NCBI GenBank assembly: GCA_949317995.1
Contig: OX439050.1
Location: 49,043,777 to 49,107,776 of the forward strand
Source of the DNA: Acholoe squamosa
Lineage: Eukaryota > Annelida > Polychaeta > Phyllodocida > Polynoidae
Length of the DNA stretch: 64,000 nucleotides
Reading direction: 5' to 3'
In this document: positions 28 to 9,815 of the stretch, one piece after another
How positions within the stretch are numbered: position 1 is the stretch's first letter
How the letters are laid out: each line of letters opens with the position of its first letter
The notes under the pieces: model-generated
What the model saw: only the letters and a program-made list of their open reading frames with translations
Databases searched by the model: none
What the model was told of the DNA's origin: nothing
Position numbers and translations under genes: made by a program

Positions 28-144
28 GACCGTTGCACAATATGTTCTGCCTTTTCACAACGAGAGTCGTTGTGACAGCGAGACAAAAAAAACAGGACTC
101 GCTGTGCTTTCCTCGCTGCTGCAGCGAGACTCTAGCAGAGCGAG
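28..144. repeat. Left terminal motif array of the Harbinger element
   Basis: Short related motifs are crowded here in both orientations: CCGTTGCACAAT (30-41), CACAACGAG (56-64), CGTTGTG (68-74), GACAGCGAG (74-82), CTCGCTGTGC (98-107), the near-palindrome CTCGCTGCTGCAGCGAG (112-128) and GCAGAGCGAG (135-144). The same words fill the right end. The array lies about 120 bp upstream of the first start codon, so it may act both as transposase/Myb binding sites and as promoter of the first gene. That role is inferred. Confidence 0.6.
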
Positions 145-259
145 AAAAAACGACAGGGCACCCGCGTATTTTGACCCAGTTAGGCAGAACGTCACTTCCG
201 GTGCCCGCGCTGATGTCAACAAGAGGCCGGCTTCGATCAACGAAACACAGGGATATATC

Positions 260-3200
260 ATGTCTCACTACGCTTCAGAAGTAAGTTTTCTTTTAAAATA
301 GTGTTCTATAAGGTAGATCTTGTTCAGAAGAAGACAATGACATGCTGTTCTTAGACTGTTATTCCTTTTCCGTCGTTCTGTTAGCTTTCTTTCTATGCCG
401 GGTCGGGCGATAATAGGGTAATTTGGTTCGTTCTAACGTCTTTTGAGCGTGTCTCTCTCTCTGTCTTGTTATTTCTTTTCATTTTCTTTTTTTTTCTCCC
501 TCTCTTCAAATTTTACTGCAAAGAAGAGAAAAAATCGAGTTATTCAGACATTCTTAGATTCATTTTTTCATAATTAACAGTACCTGAACAAAAGTCCCCC
601 TCTCCTCCCCCCTAATTTTCTTTTTTCCTGAAAATAAATATTCTTTATTTTCTTTTTTCAGTACGACCGTTGTTATGCTTTGTCTTCAAGCGACGAAGAC
701 GATGAGGAAGAGGAGTACGATCTTGCGACCCAAGCGGGCAGCAGGTCGTTCGAGTTACCAGAAATTTTGAAAACTAACACCCTAACAGAAGGATCAGACG
801 AGGAGGAAGAAGCACTAGAGCAAGGAGAGGAAGAAGAGGAATACATTTTAGAGGATTCTAGTGAACTCTCAGAGGAAGATAGCCCTGTTCGAAAGGGTAA
901 GGTGAAAAAGGCTAAGGCAAAACAACCTAAGGCGGGTCCCTCCAGCAGGCCTGAAACGAACTTAACTTCCCGGGGGACAGAGAGGGCCAGAGACGTATAC
1001 TGGACTGAAGCTGAGCATAGAGCGCTCTTCTTTGCCCTCCTCAATCAGAAGCCGTATATCAAGGCTAGGGGGAAGAATGGAGCACAGCTGAGGAGAGAAG
1101 GTTGGGACACAGTTCTAGGTGAGTTTTTTTTTATTAAGTTTGACATTATGACAGAAAAAAATCTTTATCTTTTCTCTTATCCTCAAAGTTAAACAGAACT
1201 AAGTGCCTTCTGTGTGTTTTTCATGAAGAGAGCTGTTCTTTTTCTCAGATATTCTATGTCTCCTTTGATCTCTTGCAGCCACAGTCAACAGCATCAAGAA
1301 TGCGAACCGGGAGTTAGACAAAATGCAGCATCACGTGAATGATTATTTCTCTAAGCTTAAGGCAAAGGTGAGCGAACAAAAAATATATTATACTCTTCAT
1401 AGTGATTTGCTACACCTTTCAAAATATAAGTTAGTGTAACTTAAATGGATGTCTTATTTCTTCTGTATCTTTCTGACCTCCTTCCCCTTTATTTTTCATT
1501 TTCTTGTCCTCATTATTTTCTCATGCTTTTCAGAACGAGGAATATCTATACCTGATAGAGAAAGGAAAACCATGTGAAGGATGCTCCTTGACCGACATGA
1601 TGTTGTTGAAGTATAAGGGAGTCGAGAGAATTGCCGGTAAGACAGAAAGAAATTTCTTTTAAGAATGAAACTAGGCCCTATCTTTAACTTATTGTGAGCG
1701 TCCTTAATTTTACTTTTATTGATTATTGTGTTTTCAGCACAGGCATTTTTTTTCCTTTGAATAAATAAATGTTTTCAAGAAACATGCATCAATATTATGA
1801 TGGGTCTACGCTTTCCCAAAATTCATAGTAAAACACAGCAGACCTAACATTGTTTGTTCTTTTGACCTATTTTCTTCTTCTTTCTCTCCTCGATAGCGAT
1901 ACCTCACGTTGTTCTGTTCTTGACAATGTGTATATTCTTGGACCACAATTTCCCTTGAACAATAGAATTTTTTTTTTTTTTCAGGGCAAGGAGGGGAAAT
2001 AGTCTACTACACGGATCCCGTGGAAGAGGAAAAGAAACGAAGGCAACAGGCCAAGAAGTCCCCTGCTGTGCAGTCTAGAGTTAAAGCTAAAGGTGCTGCT
2101 CCGTCTCCCCTTAAAGTTTTGGTTGTGCCTTCAGAGAAGGAGCTGTTGGCACAGTTTCAGTGTCCCATGCCTAAGAAAGGGAAAGGACCTGTGTCTCCGG
2201 CAGTCAAGGTGCCTTTCAAGAAACCGGGTAAGGCTGCAGCAGCAGCAGGTGGGGCCAAGGTCACTGGCACACCGAAAGCGACAAAGGCCAAAGTTGCTGC
2301 AAATACAAAGGAAGCGAAGGCTAAACCTTCTCCTTCTCCCTCTCGAAGAGGTACCGCTAAGGCTCCTTTCAAGAAACCAGGTGTTCGGGCAGTCAGGAAC
2401 GCTGCTGCCTTTGACGTTGATTTGACAGGAGACGACAGATCTGATGACATGCAAGTAGACGTTGTGTCAACAGACACCGAGATAGTGGACTTGACCGGTA
2501 TTCAACAGGAAGTCCCCCTCACTTCTACTCCAAAGTCGGAAGTCAAAAAGGAAGTACGGCGTAGTCCACGGATTCTTGAGAAGAAAAACTCTGAGGGCAG
2601 AGGAAAGAAATTAGACTTTGTATCAAAAACCACAGATGCCTCGAGTAAAGAAGAAGAAATAGCAAATCAGGTTAAGAACCAGGAAATCAGATTAGCCAAT
2701 ATCGAGTCTTTTATGACCACTATGGAAGTACACAGACGGGACAACGTGGATAACATGATGTCCTTCCTGAGTCGATGCACAGAGGTGCATGAGAGGCTAG
2801 GAACAGTGCTTGAGAGGATAGTGTCAGACAGGGAGTCCATCGTGAAAACGCAGGAAACTACCAGCCGTCACTTGCAGTCTATCATTGACACTCAGGCAAC
2901 TTGCAGCCGTAATGTGGCTCAACTTATAAACGGTAAGGCATTATTTGGGTGGACATGTCATAAATCGAGAAAAAAAATATGTGTAGCAGTAAGTGTCTAG
3001 GTGTCTGGCATTTCCTTTTTTTATTTCATTTTCACTCTCATCTGAAGTTTTTCTTGACCAACAAAAATACTTATATTTATTTGTTTGCACAACGAGACAG
3101 ATCGTCACAGCGTGACTTATACAGTTGGCATAAGTTTTTTTATTCGTTTCAACTTTTTATATCCTACAGTTTCCGGTAAGGTCATTCACATGACCGACGG

Positions 3201-4783
3201 GCTCCAAAGGAGGCCTGTCATGATGATGTGTGAAACCACGCAGACCCCGCCTGTTCCTGAGTTTCCTACTTTTCCCCTTGTTGTTAAACCTTCGTCTTCA
3301 GGTGCCTTGAAAGGTAAGTATTTTTTATTTTTTTTTCATAGTCTAAATGTGTCTTGTCCTATCCAATAAGTCTCTTTGTGAATCTCGTACAGACGAGAGA
3401 AAAAAGCAGAACGAAGGCACGCTCTTTGTGCAACGACCTCCTGGCCTATCTGTGCTTCTTCATATAGTTAGTCCAAAAGATTGGGAAGTTGTAAGTTATT
3501 GGAAAAACAGAATAAAAGAAAACACCGTAAAGACAGAGAAACTCACCTGTGTATAGTTTTGTATCACTCTCGTTCTGAAGAAAGCACAAAAAAAGTTTTT
3601 GCCTTGTTTTTCCACAGTTTTGACGCTCGATCCCTCTGCAGACCAGTCCACAGTGGCCCAAAACCTCCTTCACGTCAATGGCAATGGAGAACTAGTCACA
3701 GGTCCCACCGTAAACCAAGCTTCCCCTCTAACTTTGGTTTTAGCGGGGGAACCTGCAGCCCAAGAAGAGGAAGAGCAGCAGGGAGGATCGTATCCTGGTT
3801 GTGTGGTTAAAAGCGAGCCTCTAGAGCACGATCAAGGAGACGCGGGAAACAACGTCAACAGAGAGGTTGTTTACCAAGAGGTTCTTTATGAAGAGGAGGG
3901 AGAGGAAGGGACTCAACTTCCTTCTCCGCCAGGTGATGACCCTCAAAATCAGGTCACCCAGCCATTGAATGTACGGCATAACGAGCTTATTGAGCAAGGC
4001 AATCAGGGGCATACTGACCTCTCAGAGCCTGGAAAAGACTCCCATAGTGACGCGGGTGATGCAGGTTCTAACATAGAAGCACAGGGAGGTAGTGATCTTA
4101 TGAAAGAGGGAAGCACTGACATGCAGGCTCATAACGAAGGACTAGAACAGGGAGGGAATGATGTCCTTGAGGATGGGGGTCAAGATGGCCAAACTCTCAG
4201 AGGAACTGACTTACAGAAAGAGGCGGCAGAAGGAGATAAAACTGTAAGCTGTGAGGCAGGAGAGGACAGCGAAGTAGTACCATGTCCAAAACTTAAAGAA
4301 GATGGAGGTGAAGAGACAGTGAAAGAGGTAGCACAAGACACCCAAAAAGAGGCTGGAAAAGAACAGCCACATTTGCAGCAAGGCGCTATTCAGACTAAAG
4401 AAGACCTCGAGGTTTCTCTCATAGACGTAGACGATGAAGTTCCAGAAGGAAGACTTGGTTTATGTGTGGTTCTTTCTACATGTGCCAGAACACACCCTCC
4501 TCCGCGTAAAATCAAGAGGGTCCACATAGATATATCTCAGGGGGGAGTAGTGCTCGACTGCAGTAACATAGAAGGGGTACTGAAGAAGGAGAAGCCTCTA
4601 GAGGAACTAACAGAGCCTGAACCTGACAAAGAGGTGATCACAGCGGCAGAAACTCTCCACTCCCTTCACCTGGCTGTTGATCCTAAGCCGGGTCCTGCGA
4701 CCAGGAAAAGGGTAGCAGAGGCTACCAAAGGACAGCCTAAGAAAAAAAGGAAGGGCCCAAAGAATGGATCGAAAAAGAAATAG
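260..4783 (+). CDS. 975-aa acidic nuclear protein with Myb/SANT-like domain (Harbinger accessory gene 1)
   Basis: Seven exons join in frame with GT-AG borders: 260-280, 662-1118, 1279-1367, 1534-1636, 1985-2932, 3170-3313 and 3618-4783. The intron phases are 0,1,0,1,1,1. The ATG at 260 opens a 7-codon first exon. Residues about 10-100 are very Glu/Asp/Ser-rich. A Myb/SANT-like (trihelix) domain spans about 118-205, with Trp121 and Trp155. A Lys/Ala/Pro basic stretch (about 235-360) follows and repeats the motif PFKKPG. Then come two VDLT-type motifs (368-371 and 391-394), a probable helical region (about 430-535), a long acidic tail and a C-terminal PKKKRK nuclear signal. In known Harbingers a Myb-like partner binds the transposon ends and carries the transposase into the nucleus. 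I infer that role here. The length is far above the usual partner size. A polyA signal follows at 5319. I do not recognise a named orthologue. Confidence 0.8.
3365..3444. repeat. Internal copy of transposon-end sequence in intron 6 of accessory gene 1
   Basis: AATAAGTCTCTTTGTGAAT at 3365-3383 is the exact inverted copy of positions 6-24. TTTGTGCAACGACCTCCTGG at 3425-3444 matches 17 of 20 bases of the right end (9796-9815). GCAGAACGA lies between them. The block could be a solo end left by an earlier related insertion, or internal binding sites built from the same words. Confidence 0.55.
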
Positions 4784-5551
4784 AAAATGTTACTTTCATG
4801 TGACTTTCACAGTCAGAGTATTCATGTTCGTTTTCCACTTTGTTATGATACAAGGGTTTCAGATTAAGAAAATCTAATTTTTCAAGAGAGAAACAAACTG
4901 ACTATGACGCTGTATGTTTTATGACTTCAACCTACATAGAGGAATCTTTTTATTTGGCCACAACGAGACTCCTTCTGAAATGCATGATGCGGTTGGAGAG
5001 TGGACAGACATATTTTCATGTAGGGAACATTTCTTTCGGGTGAACAAAAGAGAAAACCCACTTTGGTTTACTTTACTAGTACTTAAGCTTAAAAAAACAG
5101 ATACTTCCTAACATAATAAGTCACTGATGTCTTATACCATGACCCCTTCACTGAGTAGTCTGAAAAGTCATGAGGTACAGTGTAGTTAAGAGTTTTATGC
5201 CTTTGAAACAGTTATCGGCTTTTCCTCGACCACAAAACCATTTGAAAAGAAATAAGGTGCTACAGTGGCCACACTATTGAAGTCCACTTTTCCTAGTCAC
5301 TTTCTGGTCATGATATGTAATAAAAAGTTTGAAGTGAAAGCCTGTGTGACCTGTTGTTCCTCTGATAACGTACTGAATAGTATATTAGCTTGAAGTTAAA
5401 GAAGTACAAGACTGAAAAAGCTTTGTTTATCTATTCTAATGCTATGCCCTACTTCACAACGACTTTTTAGAAAAAAGGTCGTTGTGCGTAGGGGGCAGCA
5501 CTCTCGATTTCATGTTATGACGTCATAATTGACAGAACGTCGTGGAACAAC
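4784..5551 (+). promoter_or_regulatory. Intergenic region between the two Myb/SANT genes, with end-type motifs
   Basis: This stretch holds the 3' UTR of accessory gene 1 and the presumed promoter of accessory gene 2. CACAACGAG occurs at 4959-4967. CACAACGAC (5455-5463) and GTCGTTGTGC (5479-5488) form an inverted pair 64 bp upstream of the second start codon. Their likeness to the element ends suggests that the element's own proteins may bind here. No open frame in the stretch is convincing. Confidence 0.45.
5319..5324 (+). terminator. Polyadenylation signal AATAAA of accessory gene 1
   Basis: A canonical AATAAA lies 536 bp after the stop codon at 4783 and is the first good match downstream. 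Confidence 0.45.
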
Positions 5552-7263
5552 ATGTCCAAATCTACAGGTGATATGCCTCCTAAGAAGCACAAGGTATGTA
5601 AAAAAGCTTGACCAACTTCAAGTCTGAATATCAGAGAAAGTCCTGAACACAAAGGAGAGCATGCAGAGCATAAAAAAAGGGCCTCAAAGTTAATTTTATA
5701 AGAGGATAATGGCGGGTCACGTACGACGTAGCACAACGTTAAAAGTTAGCCAATAGTCGCTGTGCTTTGTCCCTTACTTCTCTCGTTGTGACACCGGTTG
5801 GCAAAGGCTAATAAATAATTTTTTTATTCCATGTTATGACAGCAGGGTCAGCCTGATAAGAGACCTAAGAAAAGAAGACAAATGATACTGAAGCATAAGG
5901 ATTTCTCGGTTGACTCAGAGGCCTCTACAGTCCTTTACCAGCCAGAAAATGCACATCGAGAAAAGAAAGCAAACGATACCTTGGTAGGAGCTTCTTATGC
6001 TGACCATCAGTCCAACGCCAGTGACTCCGAAAGTGAAGCAGAAGATCTCCCTATGCGAAACGACCTTCCTGTCTCCAGAGAAAGGTGGAAGACGAAAGAA
6101 GTAGAAGCCCTAATGGATGCAATAAACTTAAACCGGGACGCTATAAAGTTCCACTTCAGCGGCACAGGAGGAGGGAGGGACATAAGGCGGCAAGCATGGA
6201 GAGACGTGGCATGTAAGTTTATTACTTCGATAGAATAATCTTATATCTTCCCCTTTTTTTTCAAGGCAAGTTACTTCATAAAAAAAGAATTTATAAATTA
6301 AATACTTTCTTCTTAATTCTTTCAGTATACGTTAACTCGGAAGCGCACACTCACCGGACTGTCAGACAGTGCTCTGATAAGGCGTCTGATTTCACCCAAA
6401 AGATGAAGCAAAAGGTAGGAGAGAAGTGAAATTTTTCTTTTTCAACATAACAATAAAGTTAGTGAAGAGAAATAAGCAAAATAACAAAATTTTTATGCTA
6501 ATCTATTTACTTACAGTACAATACACTAAGAAGGGAGATCAAAAAGACAGGAAGCGGACCACCTGCAAAGAAGTTGCTTTTGTCCAACACCCAGCAGAAA
6601 GCTTTAGAATATCTGAAACCAGAGGCAGTTCGAGGTGAGGATGGACTACCGTAGTCACTGTACCCTACCTTATTCAACCTCTTATTGAGTTTAGAATAAA
6701 AGACATCTAATGTTTTTTTCAAACACAGCGAGAAAAAAAACAATATTATGTACTTTTGAGACTCAGGAAACATCTGTATGTTTTCAGGTATTCCAGGAGT
6801 TACTCCCATGGAGCTGGACCCTACCAAACCAAAGACACAGTCAGGCATAACAGAAAACCATCTGTGGAGACCAGGTACTGCCGACTTCTCCAAGGCTAAG
6901 ACCAAAATGAAGACCACTAAAGTACCAACAAAAGATAAAGACAAAGAGAGAAGGAAGGAAGAAAGAAAGAAGAAAGAGGAGAGAAGGAGGAAACATGAGG
7001 GAAAGATGAAGGAGGAGAGAAAGAGGGAGAAAGAAGAAGCAGTATTAAGGAAGAAAATGGAGAATTTATCCAAACAGAAAGCAGCAGCGAGGAAGAAAGA
7101 CGAGTCAAAGACTGCTCTACCCAAAGTTAGACCTAAACAAGGGCAGAAAGTTGTGGTTTGCACCAGAAGCGAATACCTGCAGCTGTGTGAGGAGAAGAAA
7201 AGGAGGAAGGCAGAGAGGGAAGCCATAAGAGCTCAGAGAAGGCAAGCCAAAAATCAGTTATGA
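5552..7263 (+). CDS. 363-aa nuclear Myb/SANT-like protein (Harbinger accessory gene 2)
   Basis: Five exons join in frame: 5552-5593, 5846-6212, 6326-6414, 6517-6634 and 6788-7263, with intron phases 0,1,0,1. The ATG at 5552 opens a 14-codon exon ending PPKKHK, and exon 2 begins with a KRPKKRR nuclear signal. A Myb/SANT-like domain spans about residues 95-185: an RWKTKE helix start, WRDVA, a VNS..T.RTVRQC helix and a closing LRREIKKTG block, typical of Myb-like partners of Harbinger transposases. Residues about 250-325 form a Lys/Glu/Arg-rich likely coiled coil. The exon borders match those of accessory gene 1 (phases 0,1,0,1 and an identical 89-nt exon). The exon 2 acceptor is a tandem AG-CAG (5841-5846), so a 364-residue form is possible. 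Inferred role: binds element ends and imports the transposase. Confidence 0.82.
5731..5792. promoter_or_regulatory. Cluster of end-type motifs in intron 1 of accessory gene 2
   Basis: GCACAACGTT (5731-5740), GTCGCTGTGC (5756-5765) and CTCGTTGTGAC (5782-5792) sit within 62 bp. They are close variants of the words at the element ends, and lie just downstream of the first exon. A binding-site role is inferred. Confidence 0.4.
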
Positions 7264-7630
7264 AGTATGGATTAAATGTGACAAAGATATATATGATAAA
7301 GAGAAATGGACAATCTTATACAAGTTTGACAAAAATACAGTTTATTTACAGTTTATTATGTATATGTACATAAATAAAACTTTTTTTCTTTTACGGCGCG
7401 TGTTCAAGTTTTCTTTCACAAAAGGAACAGGAAAAAATGTCAGAGAAAAATATTTCATGTGAGGCCTGTCCGCCAGGTACATCTTTATGTACATTAAGGT
7501 AAATATCTCAGACAAGCTGAAACTCTCTCTTTGTGACATACATGTGTACCACATCCTAATTATAAGGTATCACAGACAAAGAGCCAAAGTACTTTCGTTG
7601 TAACTTGAAGCATGCAAGGTGCCACACTTT
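7264..7630. terminator. Shared 3' region of two convergent genes, with overlapping polyA signals
   Basis: Accessory gene 2 ends at 7263 and the transposase gene ends, on the other strand, at 7631. AATAAA for the plus gene lies at 7373-7378. TTTATT, which is AATAAA for the minus gene, lies at 7341-7346 and 7352-7357. If these are used, the two 3' UTRs overlap by at least tens of bases. Confidence 0.5.
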
Positions 7631-9485
7631 TCAGAAGTATTTGTTGCAGTACTCGTCCCGGAAGCACTTGATACGCTCCTTTTCCTGTTCTCGGGAAAGC
7701 TGTCTTGGTTGGGGAAGGGGAAGACGGACTGGTGTCCAGGGATCAGCAGGGTCATCTACAATCCTTATGCCATGATCCATGGCCACGTTGTGAAGGCAGG
7801 CGCAACTGGTTATGATGTCTGAAGACCTCTTTGGCTCGTGCCTCATGTAACCTGCGGAGGAGTCCAAGATCCTGAAAGACAAAAAAAAACAGAAAAAAAG
7901 GAGCTTTAGACAGGGACAAAGGATGACACAGAAAAAAAATATTGGAAGGTAATATGTTAAAGCGCAGATAATTAGTTCCTTTCTTTTTCTCATGAGTGGG
8001 AAAGAGTTACACTCACCTCCAACGCTGCTTCAGGATACCGATGCACTGCTCGACTCGAACCCGGCTCTTCTTATGCCACTTGTTGAATGCGGTCTTCTTG
8101 GGTGAAGTCTCGTCCTTATAGGGCGTGAAGAGGTGCCGACGCAACCCATATCTGCCAAAAGTAGAAGATAACCACATGTTATAGTGTTTTGCATGCTGTG
8201 AAAGAAAAGTAGAGACAAAGACTAAGAAAGGAAGCTCACCCCGAGTCTCCTAGGAGAACAAAATCCCCCCAAATCTCCTGGTCGAGCTCGTCTCCAACGG
8301 GGCTCGCCGCGAGACAGTAGGCATCATGCACCGATCCTGGGAAGCGAGGGTCTATGAACAATATCCGTTTGTCATAGTCACAGACAATCTGCACCAAGAA
8401 AGAAATAAAAATCAGGAAAAGGGAAATAAATTCCATCTAACCATATTCTGTTATAGATGATATGTTTCATTATAATTCTAGAGGTGCAGGACAAAAAAAA
8501 GAGGAAGATGAACCTTATTTTATTAAGGTAACAAAAATAAAGAGGACTCCACAGAAGGTAAGAAAAAGGTGAAAAACTCACAGTGGTGTTGATGGAGTGA
8601 TACTGATTTCTGTTGACGTATGCGCTCTCGTTTCTGGAGGGGCACTTGATTGGGATGTGGGTCCCATCCACGTATCCAAATACAAACGGTGTCTCTTGTT
8701 CGACCTCTCTTTGGTTCCTCTTGACTTTGTGGCGGTATAACTTCAAGGCCGCAAGCAGTTTCGATTCAAAAGAGTGGGGCCACTTCACATACTTGTGCCG
8801 GTTCTTGACGAAGTATTGAGCGACATCTTTCACTGAATTACACACTACGGACTTGGATACCTTCTGGGAGTCCCCAGTCAGCACGAAGAAACTCCCAGTG
8901 GCAAAATACCGTAACACTAAACAGAACTGAAAGAAAAAAAAGGAAATCAATGTCAGAGTATTAGGAAAAGGGGAGAAATAAATAAATAAATTAAGAAAAT
9001 TTCTTTCTTCCTGATAAAAGGTCGTCTAGTCATGGGTGTGGACTACAAAATTCTACTGGTGACATGCTCATTTCTTGAAACAGACATGTGACATGGGATT
9101 TACTGACATGACTAAAACAATTATTGACATAAAATTATTAAAATTGACATGTTGGGCCATGACAGAGGTGACATGTGACATCAAGTGATATGTGACATGA
9201 CCATTTCATCGAGTCGACATGTCAGAAGGGGGACCCCCCCCATCCAGACCACAATGAAAAAAAGAAGGTATTTCAGCTTACCCTGTCTATGCAGGAGAGG
9301 CCTCCCCCACGTTTGCTCCCCTTGAACTTGCTGTGTAGCCTGTAGTCCTGGCACAGCTCCATCACTACCTCCTTGCTGAGCCTGTACCTTGCTGTAAACT
9401 CTTCATCAGAGAATAAAGTGAAGGGAGTATCTCTTTTCTTGCACTTTCGCTTTCTTCTTCCCAGACTGTCTCTTGGGACATCCAT
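7631..9485 (-). CDS. PIF/Harbinger DDE transposase, 357 aa, HARBI1-like
   Basis: Five exons on the minus strand join in frame with GT-AG borders: 9485-9282, 8926-8582, 8388-8240, 8151-8017 and 7871-7631, with intron phases 0,0,2,2. The protein has the order seen in HARBI1-type transposases: an N-terminal RYRLSK..V helix region, LRYFATGSF (about 73-81), a helix-turn-helix-like KVSKSVVCNSV, then a DDE_Tnp_4 catalytic core. The catalytic residues are all visible: Asp155 in VDGTHIPIK, Asp231 in LLGDSGY and Glu267 in VEQCIGILK, with 35 residues between the second Asp and the Glu. SVHD and CLHNVA are also conserved. The length matches the family (about 350). No stop or frameshift was found, so it looks potentially active. 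It is the cut-and-paste nuclease; Myb-like partners normally help it reach DNA. The ATG at 9485 begins a basic N-terminus (RRKRKCKKR). Confidence 0.93.
9018..9240. repeat. Intron 1 of the transposase gene, rich in GACATG words
   Basis: The intron 9281-8927 holds many GACATG/TGACATG words in irregular spacing, with little other structure. A similar segment (ACATGTGACATGGG) occurs at 45785-45798, which suggests that part of this intron is an old dispersed repeat. Weak evidence. Confidence 0.25.
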
Positions 9486-9629
9486 TTTGACACAGTGTAG
9501 TTGTCACACTTTAAATTTCCCTCCAAAATGTTACTCTGGTTCCATTCCAAATCACAGAACGACTGTCCCCATAGGGACCAATGTTAAAAACCAAAAAGGC
9601 GGTGACTCCAGAGTAACTGCCTTTTTTTT

Positions 9630-9815
9630 CTCGCTGTGCACCCAAAAATTTTAGCACAGCGACTTTCGCACAGCGAGGAAAAGATTGTGCAACACTTTTT
9701 TTCTCGCTCTGCAAAAACGGACCAAATGGCAGAGCGAGAAAACATTTGTGCAACACTTAGACACTAGCAGAACGAGGAAACCGGTTTTGAGGCTGATTGT
9801 GCAACGGCCCCCTGG
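9630..9815. repeat. Right terminal motif array and transposase promoter region
   Basis: CTCGCTGTGC (9630-9639), GCACAGCGA (9654-9662), GCACAGCGAG (9668-9677), CTCGCTCTGC (9703-9712), GCAGAGCGAG (9729-9738) and GCAGAACGAG (9767-9776) alternate with three TTGTGCAAC copies, the last in ATTGTGCAACGG (9796-9807). The array starts about 145 bp upstream of the transposase start codon, so it probably doubles as its promoter. The sequence beyond about 9815 lacks these words and looks like flanking host DNA. Confidence 0.6.

Follow-up and report, generated by a model that had tools for sequence, protein, structure and literature searches.

Two ancient Myb/SANT-like partner genes, probably tandem duplicates, in a putative NuwaI-type transposon of the polychaete Acholoe squamosa

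A 64,000-nucleotide stretch of the Acholoe squamosa genome (GenBank GCA_949317995.1, contig OX439050.1, positions 49,043,777 to 49,107,776 of the forward strand), here called the window and numbered from its first letter, opens inside a transposon that carries a transposase gene and two Myb/SANT-like genes, gene 1 and gene 2. An unusual trait of PIF/Harbinger-like transposons is their need for a distinct Myb partner in addition to the transposase. Judged from its sequence and its relatives in the same genome, the element appears to be of NuwaI type and recently active, with a Myb partner represented by two ancient paralogues arranged head to tail, and we lean towards the view that these arose by tandem duplication within the element. 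An earlier note on this DNA had proposed such an internal duplication from the shared introns of the two genes. Their homology and the age of their pairing held up in three further families (F2, F3 and F4), with duplication inside the element a likely origin of the pair.

Both Myb-like genes lie on the plus strand. Gene 1 (260–4783) is predicted to have seven exons (260–280, 662–1118, 1279–1367, 1534–1636, 1985–2932, 3170–3313 and 3618–4783) encoding 975 amino acids (aa) with a long tail. Gene 2 (5552–7263) is predicted to have five (5552–5593, 5846–6212, 6326–6414, 6517–6634 and 6788–7263) encoding 363 aa with a charged tail, or 364 aa if exon 2 begins at 5843, a choice that leaves the intron phases unaffected. 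The models are predictions from splice sites and from conservation, both among copies of the element and in F2 and F3 homologues. Every intron is GT/AG, and the phases are 0,1,0,1,1,1 in gene 1 and 0,1,0,1 in gene 2. The earlier observation that the first four introns share their phases therefore agrees with the gene models, as does the 89-nucleotide (nt) exon 3 common to the two genes (1279–1367 and 6326–6414), which in each is preceded by a phase-1 and followed by a phase-0 intron. The reading frame of gene 1 is intact in all seven copies read, the window's own included, and that of gene 2 in six of the seven, the exception (copy C1a) missing 16 nt from its gene 2 exons; splice dinucleotides of both genes are retained in every copy.

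The domains of the two genes were aligned blind to intron positions, and the introns were then mapped onto this sequence alignment. Introns 2, 3 and 4 of both genes fall in matching columns, with exon 3 free of gaps. The two breaks that had been named beforehand correspond (WDTVL|A with WRDVA|L, and KLKAK|N with KMKQK|Y), and a third, previously unnamed, joins them at intron 4 (ERIA|G with EAVR|G). Exon 4 differs in length (103 nt in gene 1, 118 nt in gene 2), and in both genes the intron that follows it is of phase 1 and precedes an aligned glycine. Intron 1 is of phase 0 and lies early in both genes, where the surrounding N-termini are unalignable. Sequence searches of the PDB with both domains gave no match below an E-value of 0.1.

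Could the correspondence have arisen by chance, or by convergence of unrelated genes? Identity within the domain is low enough to raise the question, as two gene 1 rows share 28% and 22% with gene 2 of the window. Against this, the alignment scores 82, a value reached by none of 500 shuffles (mean 27.4, standard deviation 5.0, maximum 51), three introns agree in both position and phase, and exon 3 measures 89 nt in all six Myb genes of the window's family (F1), F2 and F3. The shuffle test and the exon 3 length across families disfavour a chance match to the point that we regard it as scarcely credible, and homology of gene 1 and gene 2 is well supported by these comparisons.

Assignment of the two genes to the Myb class comes partly from their relatives, since the window's own genes score below the Pfam cut-off or lack a Myb match. 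The first 249 aa of gene 1 match Myb_DNA-bind_5 (PF13873; E=0.011) and Myb_DNA-bind_3 (E=0.01), both below their cut-offs, the former with 16.1 bits against the 21.7 bits required; the best Pfam row for this segment is a hydrolase, which also lies below its own cut-off and looks spurious. The gene 2 protein of the window has no Myb match in Pfam. Its F2 counterpart exceeds the Myb_DNA-bind_5 cut-off (27.1 bits), while its F3 counterpart does not reach it (18.4 bits). Elsewhere in the genome, three Myb_DNA-bind_4 places came up among the 20 candidates scored.

The age of the pairing is indicated by the other families in the genome, of which F2 and F3 were read and F4 and a further type, F5, are known from junction or motif patterns alone. 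F3 (on C18; loci L053 and L054) has three genes in the same order as the window element, with identities over aligned stretches of 59–78% for the transposase, 30–59% for gene 1 and 41–50% for gene 2; the C18 copy has in-frame stops. The same gene set is present in F2 (loci L056 and L057). In each of the three families F1, F2 and F3, exon 4 measures 103 nt in gene 1 and 118 nt in gene 2. Intron 2 is covered on both sides in five of the six genes and on its acceptor side in F2 gene 1. At C4, an F4 copy shows both junction patterns on one strand, with that of gene 1 following that of gene 2 at a distance of 4,871 nt. Of the 84 places that a transposase motif search returned, 77 belong to the F3 type and 7 to F4. 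As F2 and F3 carry the same three genes with the same introns where read, and F4 both Myb genes, the pair should predate the split of these families, a conclusion that is well supported.

Both genes also appear to have evolved as coding sequence since that split. Between F1 and F3, codon differences at positions 1 to 3 amount to 0.26, 0.20 and 0.66 in gene 2 and to 0.37, 0.31 and 0.74 in gene 1, a third-position excess as expected of coding sequence under constraint. Aligned residues are conserved at 66% in gene 2 and 51% in gene 1.

Junction patterns for the two genes occur in the genome at 288 places for gene 2 (3 for the reversed-pattern control) and 275 for gene 1 (control 0). Pairing was counted over the first 100 listed places of each pattern, 95 of those for gene 1 lying on C1–C6. 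Downstream of the gene 1 junction, one of gene 2 follows within 20 kb at 39 of 40 F1-like, 29 of 31 F3-like and one of nine F4-like places listed. Conversely, a gene 1 junction lies upstream of 74 of the 100 gene 2 places listed; many of the 26 unpaired ones carry the F2 string, and the gene 1 pattern may miss F2. F5 is defined by the distinct string at its gene-1-like exon 2 junctions, listed at 15 places on C1–C6 (G000:C1:24631683 among them). None of these 15 has a gene 2 junction within 20 kb downstream, and a looser gene 2 pattern (the first 100 of 311 matches, up to C6 52.3 Mb; control 5), inspected by eye, showed none near 14 of them. F5 may be a single-Myb relative, and possibly an outgroup; alternatively, divergence of its gene 2 may explain the result.

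How the pair came about is a separate matter. In the reading that we prefer, an intron-bearing partner gene of Myb_DNA-bind_5 type would have been duplicated in tandem inside an element ancestral to these families, and both copies would then have been retained. Three observations make it less certain. The first concerns a single Myb_DNA-bind_5 exon elsewhere in the genome, L055 (G000:C14:13920996-13921214, minus strand), which has a phase-0 intron in the same column as intron 3 although it lies outside the element. Intron 3 is therefore no marker of the pair, and the introns prove kinship only. Second, a seven-row tree left the branches unresolved, its best form joining L055 to the gene 2 side in a placement flagged for long branches. 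Third come the F5-type gene-1-like places and their lack of a detectable gene 2 junction.

The same three observations would be accommodated if two partner Mybs of related but different elements had been joined by recombination between transposons, each having inherited its introns, which could then be older than the pair. A possible exchange between transposase and Myb lineages is moreover reported for four fish elements (PMC9179366). On the other side, intron 2 is common to both genes and missing from L055, and most pairwise scores between gene 1 and gene 2 exceed those with L055. A further Harbinger-like group of the same genome also has a partner gene of a different kind. At L058 (G000:C10:18901500-18908499) a 304-aa DDE frame adjoins an intron-bearing gene of the Myb/SANT class, as in our element, but this partner is of the MADF class (PF10545, E=1.7e-8) and, judged by eye, has its phase-1 intron elsewhere; none was noticed where helix 3 ends, nor was another Myb/SANT-class gene in the 7 kb read. 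Taken together, we consider recombination between elements possible but doubtful.

L055 also bears on a different origin, in which one gene would be a captured host Myb and the other the transposon's original partner. It exists, belongs to Myb_DNA-bind_5, has one matching intron and is not known inside an element. However, its standing as a host gene is itself uncertain, as it was read over 3.2 kb only, and genes 1 and 2 further share introns 2 and 4, of which L055 lacks the former and was not seen to have the latter. We judge host capture improbable, and tandem duplication within an ancestral element remains our favoured account.

The tails of the two genes differ in charge and composition. 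One copy had been credited in the earlier note with a long tail that was both acidic and lysine-rich. The tail of gene 1 is indeed mildly acidic (net −18 overall, with a basic exon 5 at +17 and an acidic exon 7 at −37), but the lysine-rich tail belongs to gene 2 (20.9% lysine against 8.9% in gene 1). Introns 5 and 6, both of phase 1, are confined to gene 1 and have no gene 2 equivalent. A gain of the tail and of these two introns by gene 1, as the note proposed, is no likelier than their loss from gene 2, since parts of the tail occur in F1, F2 and F3, all three families read.

Internal rearrangements were seen in individual copies. The F2 copy at L056/L057 (G000:C10:34444300-34459299) contains a 5.27-kb tandem duplication (99.4% identical) of parts of gene 1 and gene 2, and a 421-bp duplication (99.5%) within its transposase gene. 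The apparent extra gene 2 before the gene 1 tail in this copy is explained by the 5.27-kb duplication rather than by conversion between the paralogues. Repeated gene 2 exon 2 junctions on one strand at G000:C4:59162700-59182955 (in steps of about 4.85 kb) and C2:3223077-3227105 (4.0 kb) suggest further internal tandem arrays.

The element as a whole spans −51 to 9811 (9,863 bp), so that the window begins 52 nt inside it. Its ends were fixed by comparing seven near-identical copies with their flanks: the left end is GGGGTCGTTGCACAA and the right, inverted, GGGGCCGTTGCACAA. These terminal inverted repeats are alike at 14 of 15 positions (by eye), and the termini read GGGG. All 14 flanking triplets of the seven copies are CWG, the left and right triplets being identical in five copies. 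In the other two, C1a and the window copy, one triplet is CAG and the other CTG; the window copy (−54 to 9814 with its triplets) carries CAG at its left end and CTG at its right. The family is young, with many copies. The first 3 kb, used as a DNA query, returned 473 candidates, and all 40 that were scored matched at 97–100%, 39 of them over the full query. Among 150 of 1,740 candidates scored with one transposase exon, 121 places matched at 96–100%, three at 86–91% and 26 at 78–81%.

The transposase gene lies on the minus strand (7631–9485) in five exons (9485–9282, 8926–8582, 8388–8240, 8151–8017 and 7871–7631), which brings the introns of the element to 14 (6 in gene 1, 4 in gene 2 and 4 here). 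When spliced, its best match is DDE_Tnp_4 (E=4.4e-36), with the related Plant_tran and DDE_Tnp_1 also matching, and it has no other known domain. Thirty DDE_Tnp_4 loci (150 of 2,936 candidates scored) were screened as outgroups; the sole strong match, L037, proved to be the neighbouring F3 sister element, and four others matched the window transposase weakly (E from 5e-4 to 0.09). Scanning the transposase alignment against viral_contigs and genome_contigs gave no confirmed relative.

A short motif, CA[CG]A[AG]CGA, picked by eye once the ends had been inspected, recurs near both termini: on the left in the subterminal region 1–198 and just before it (sites −25, 56, 67, 99 and 136), and on the right in 9562–9811 (sites 9631, 9655, 9669, 9704, 9730 and 9768). 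The two 250-bp ends thus hold 11 sites, compared with a mean of 0.14 and a maximum of 2 in 300 first-order simulations. Inside the element there are 12 more (simulated mean 0.78, maximum 3), and the 54 kb of the window outside it has two. Four copies (5455, 5479, 5757 and 5783, within 5455–5790) are found immediately upstream of gene 2 and in intron 1 of that gene. The inner sites (373–6731) lie in introns or otherwise outside coding exons, apart from a single site overlapping the 5′ edge of exon 4 in gene 1.

By analogy with the zebrafish element Harbinger3_DR, we infer that the Myb proteins would carry the transposase into the nucleus and anchor it at the subterminal repeats. Gene 2, which is short, basic and better conserved, could be the core partner in excision, and the faster-evolving gene 1, with its acidic end, an accessory or regulatory one. 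Through the motif copies that lie in introns and upstream of gene 2, the Myb pair might act on its own expression. A bolder proposal is that the lineage has long needed two diverged Mybs, as a hetero-oligomer or as docking protein plus regulator, with F5 surviving from the single-Myb state before duplication; we offer this as speculation that is rather unlikely to hold in full.

Two old Myb paralogues kept across several high-copy families would make subfunctionalisation, familiar from host genes, testable in the genes of a transposon. The protein pair and its defined repeat also offer a system for asking how Myb partners select DNA. If F5 does represent the state before duplication, then one could trace stage by stage how genes of a selfish element duplicate and divide their labour. 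No two-Myb element of this type was recognised in the open-access titles and openings of abstracts returned for the terms searched, a survey that did not cover Repbase reports.

Among known systems, the NuwaI group of PIF/Harbinger-like transposons matches the element in CWG flanks, GGG termini and DDE transposase. In PMC4482050, this group (within PHIS, that is PIF/Harbinger, ISL2EU and Spy) is described as having CWG target sites, terminal inverted repeats of 12–61 bp usually starting with GGG, a DDE transposase without another known domain and a Myb open reading frame (ORF), and our element resembles it in each of these respects, its Myb/SANT partner gene included. It departs from the group in layout. 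Most autonomous NuwaI candidates have two ORFs, mostly with one Myb, and the mean length of autonomous candidates is given there as about 4,462 bp, whereas the present element has three genes, two of them Myb/SANT-like, 14 introns and a length of 9,863 bp. For Harbinger3_DR, PMC9710019 and PMC9179366 describe experiments showing that its Myb-like protein recognises a 9-bp subterminal motif, binds the transposase and is required for both proteins to arrive in the nucleus. Our element shares with it a separate Myb-like protein beside the transposase and a short motif repeated near the ends; it differs in having two Myb genes rather than one, and in that binding to DNA and to the transposase is predicted by analogy with what was established there by experiment.
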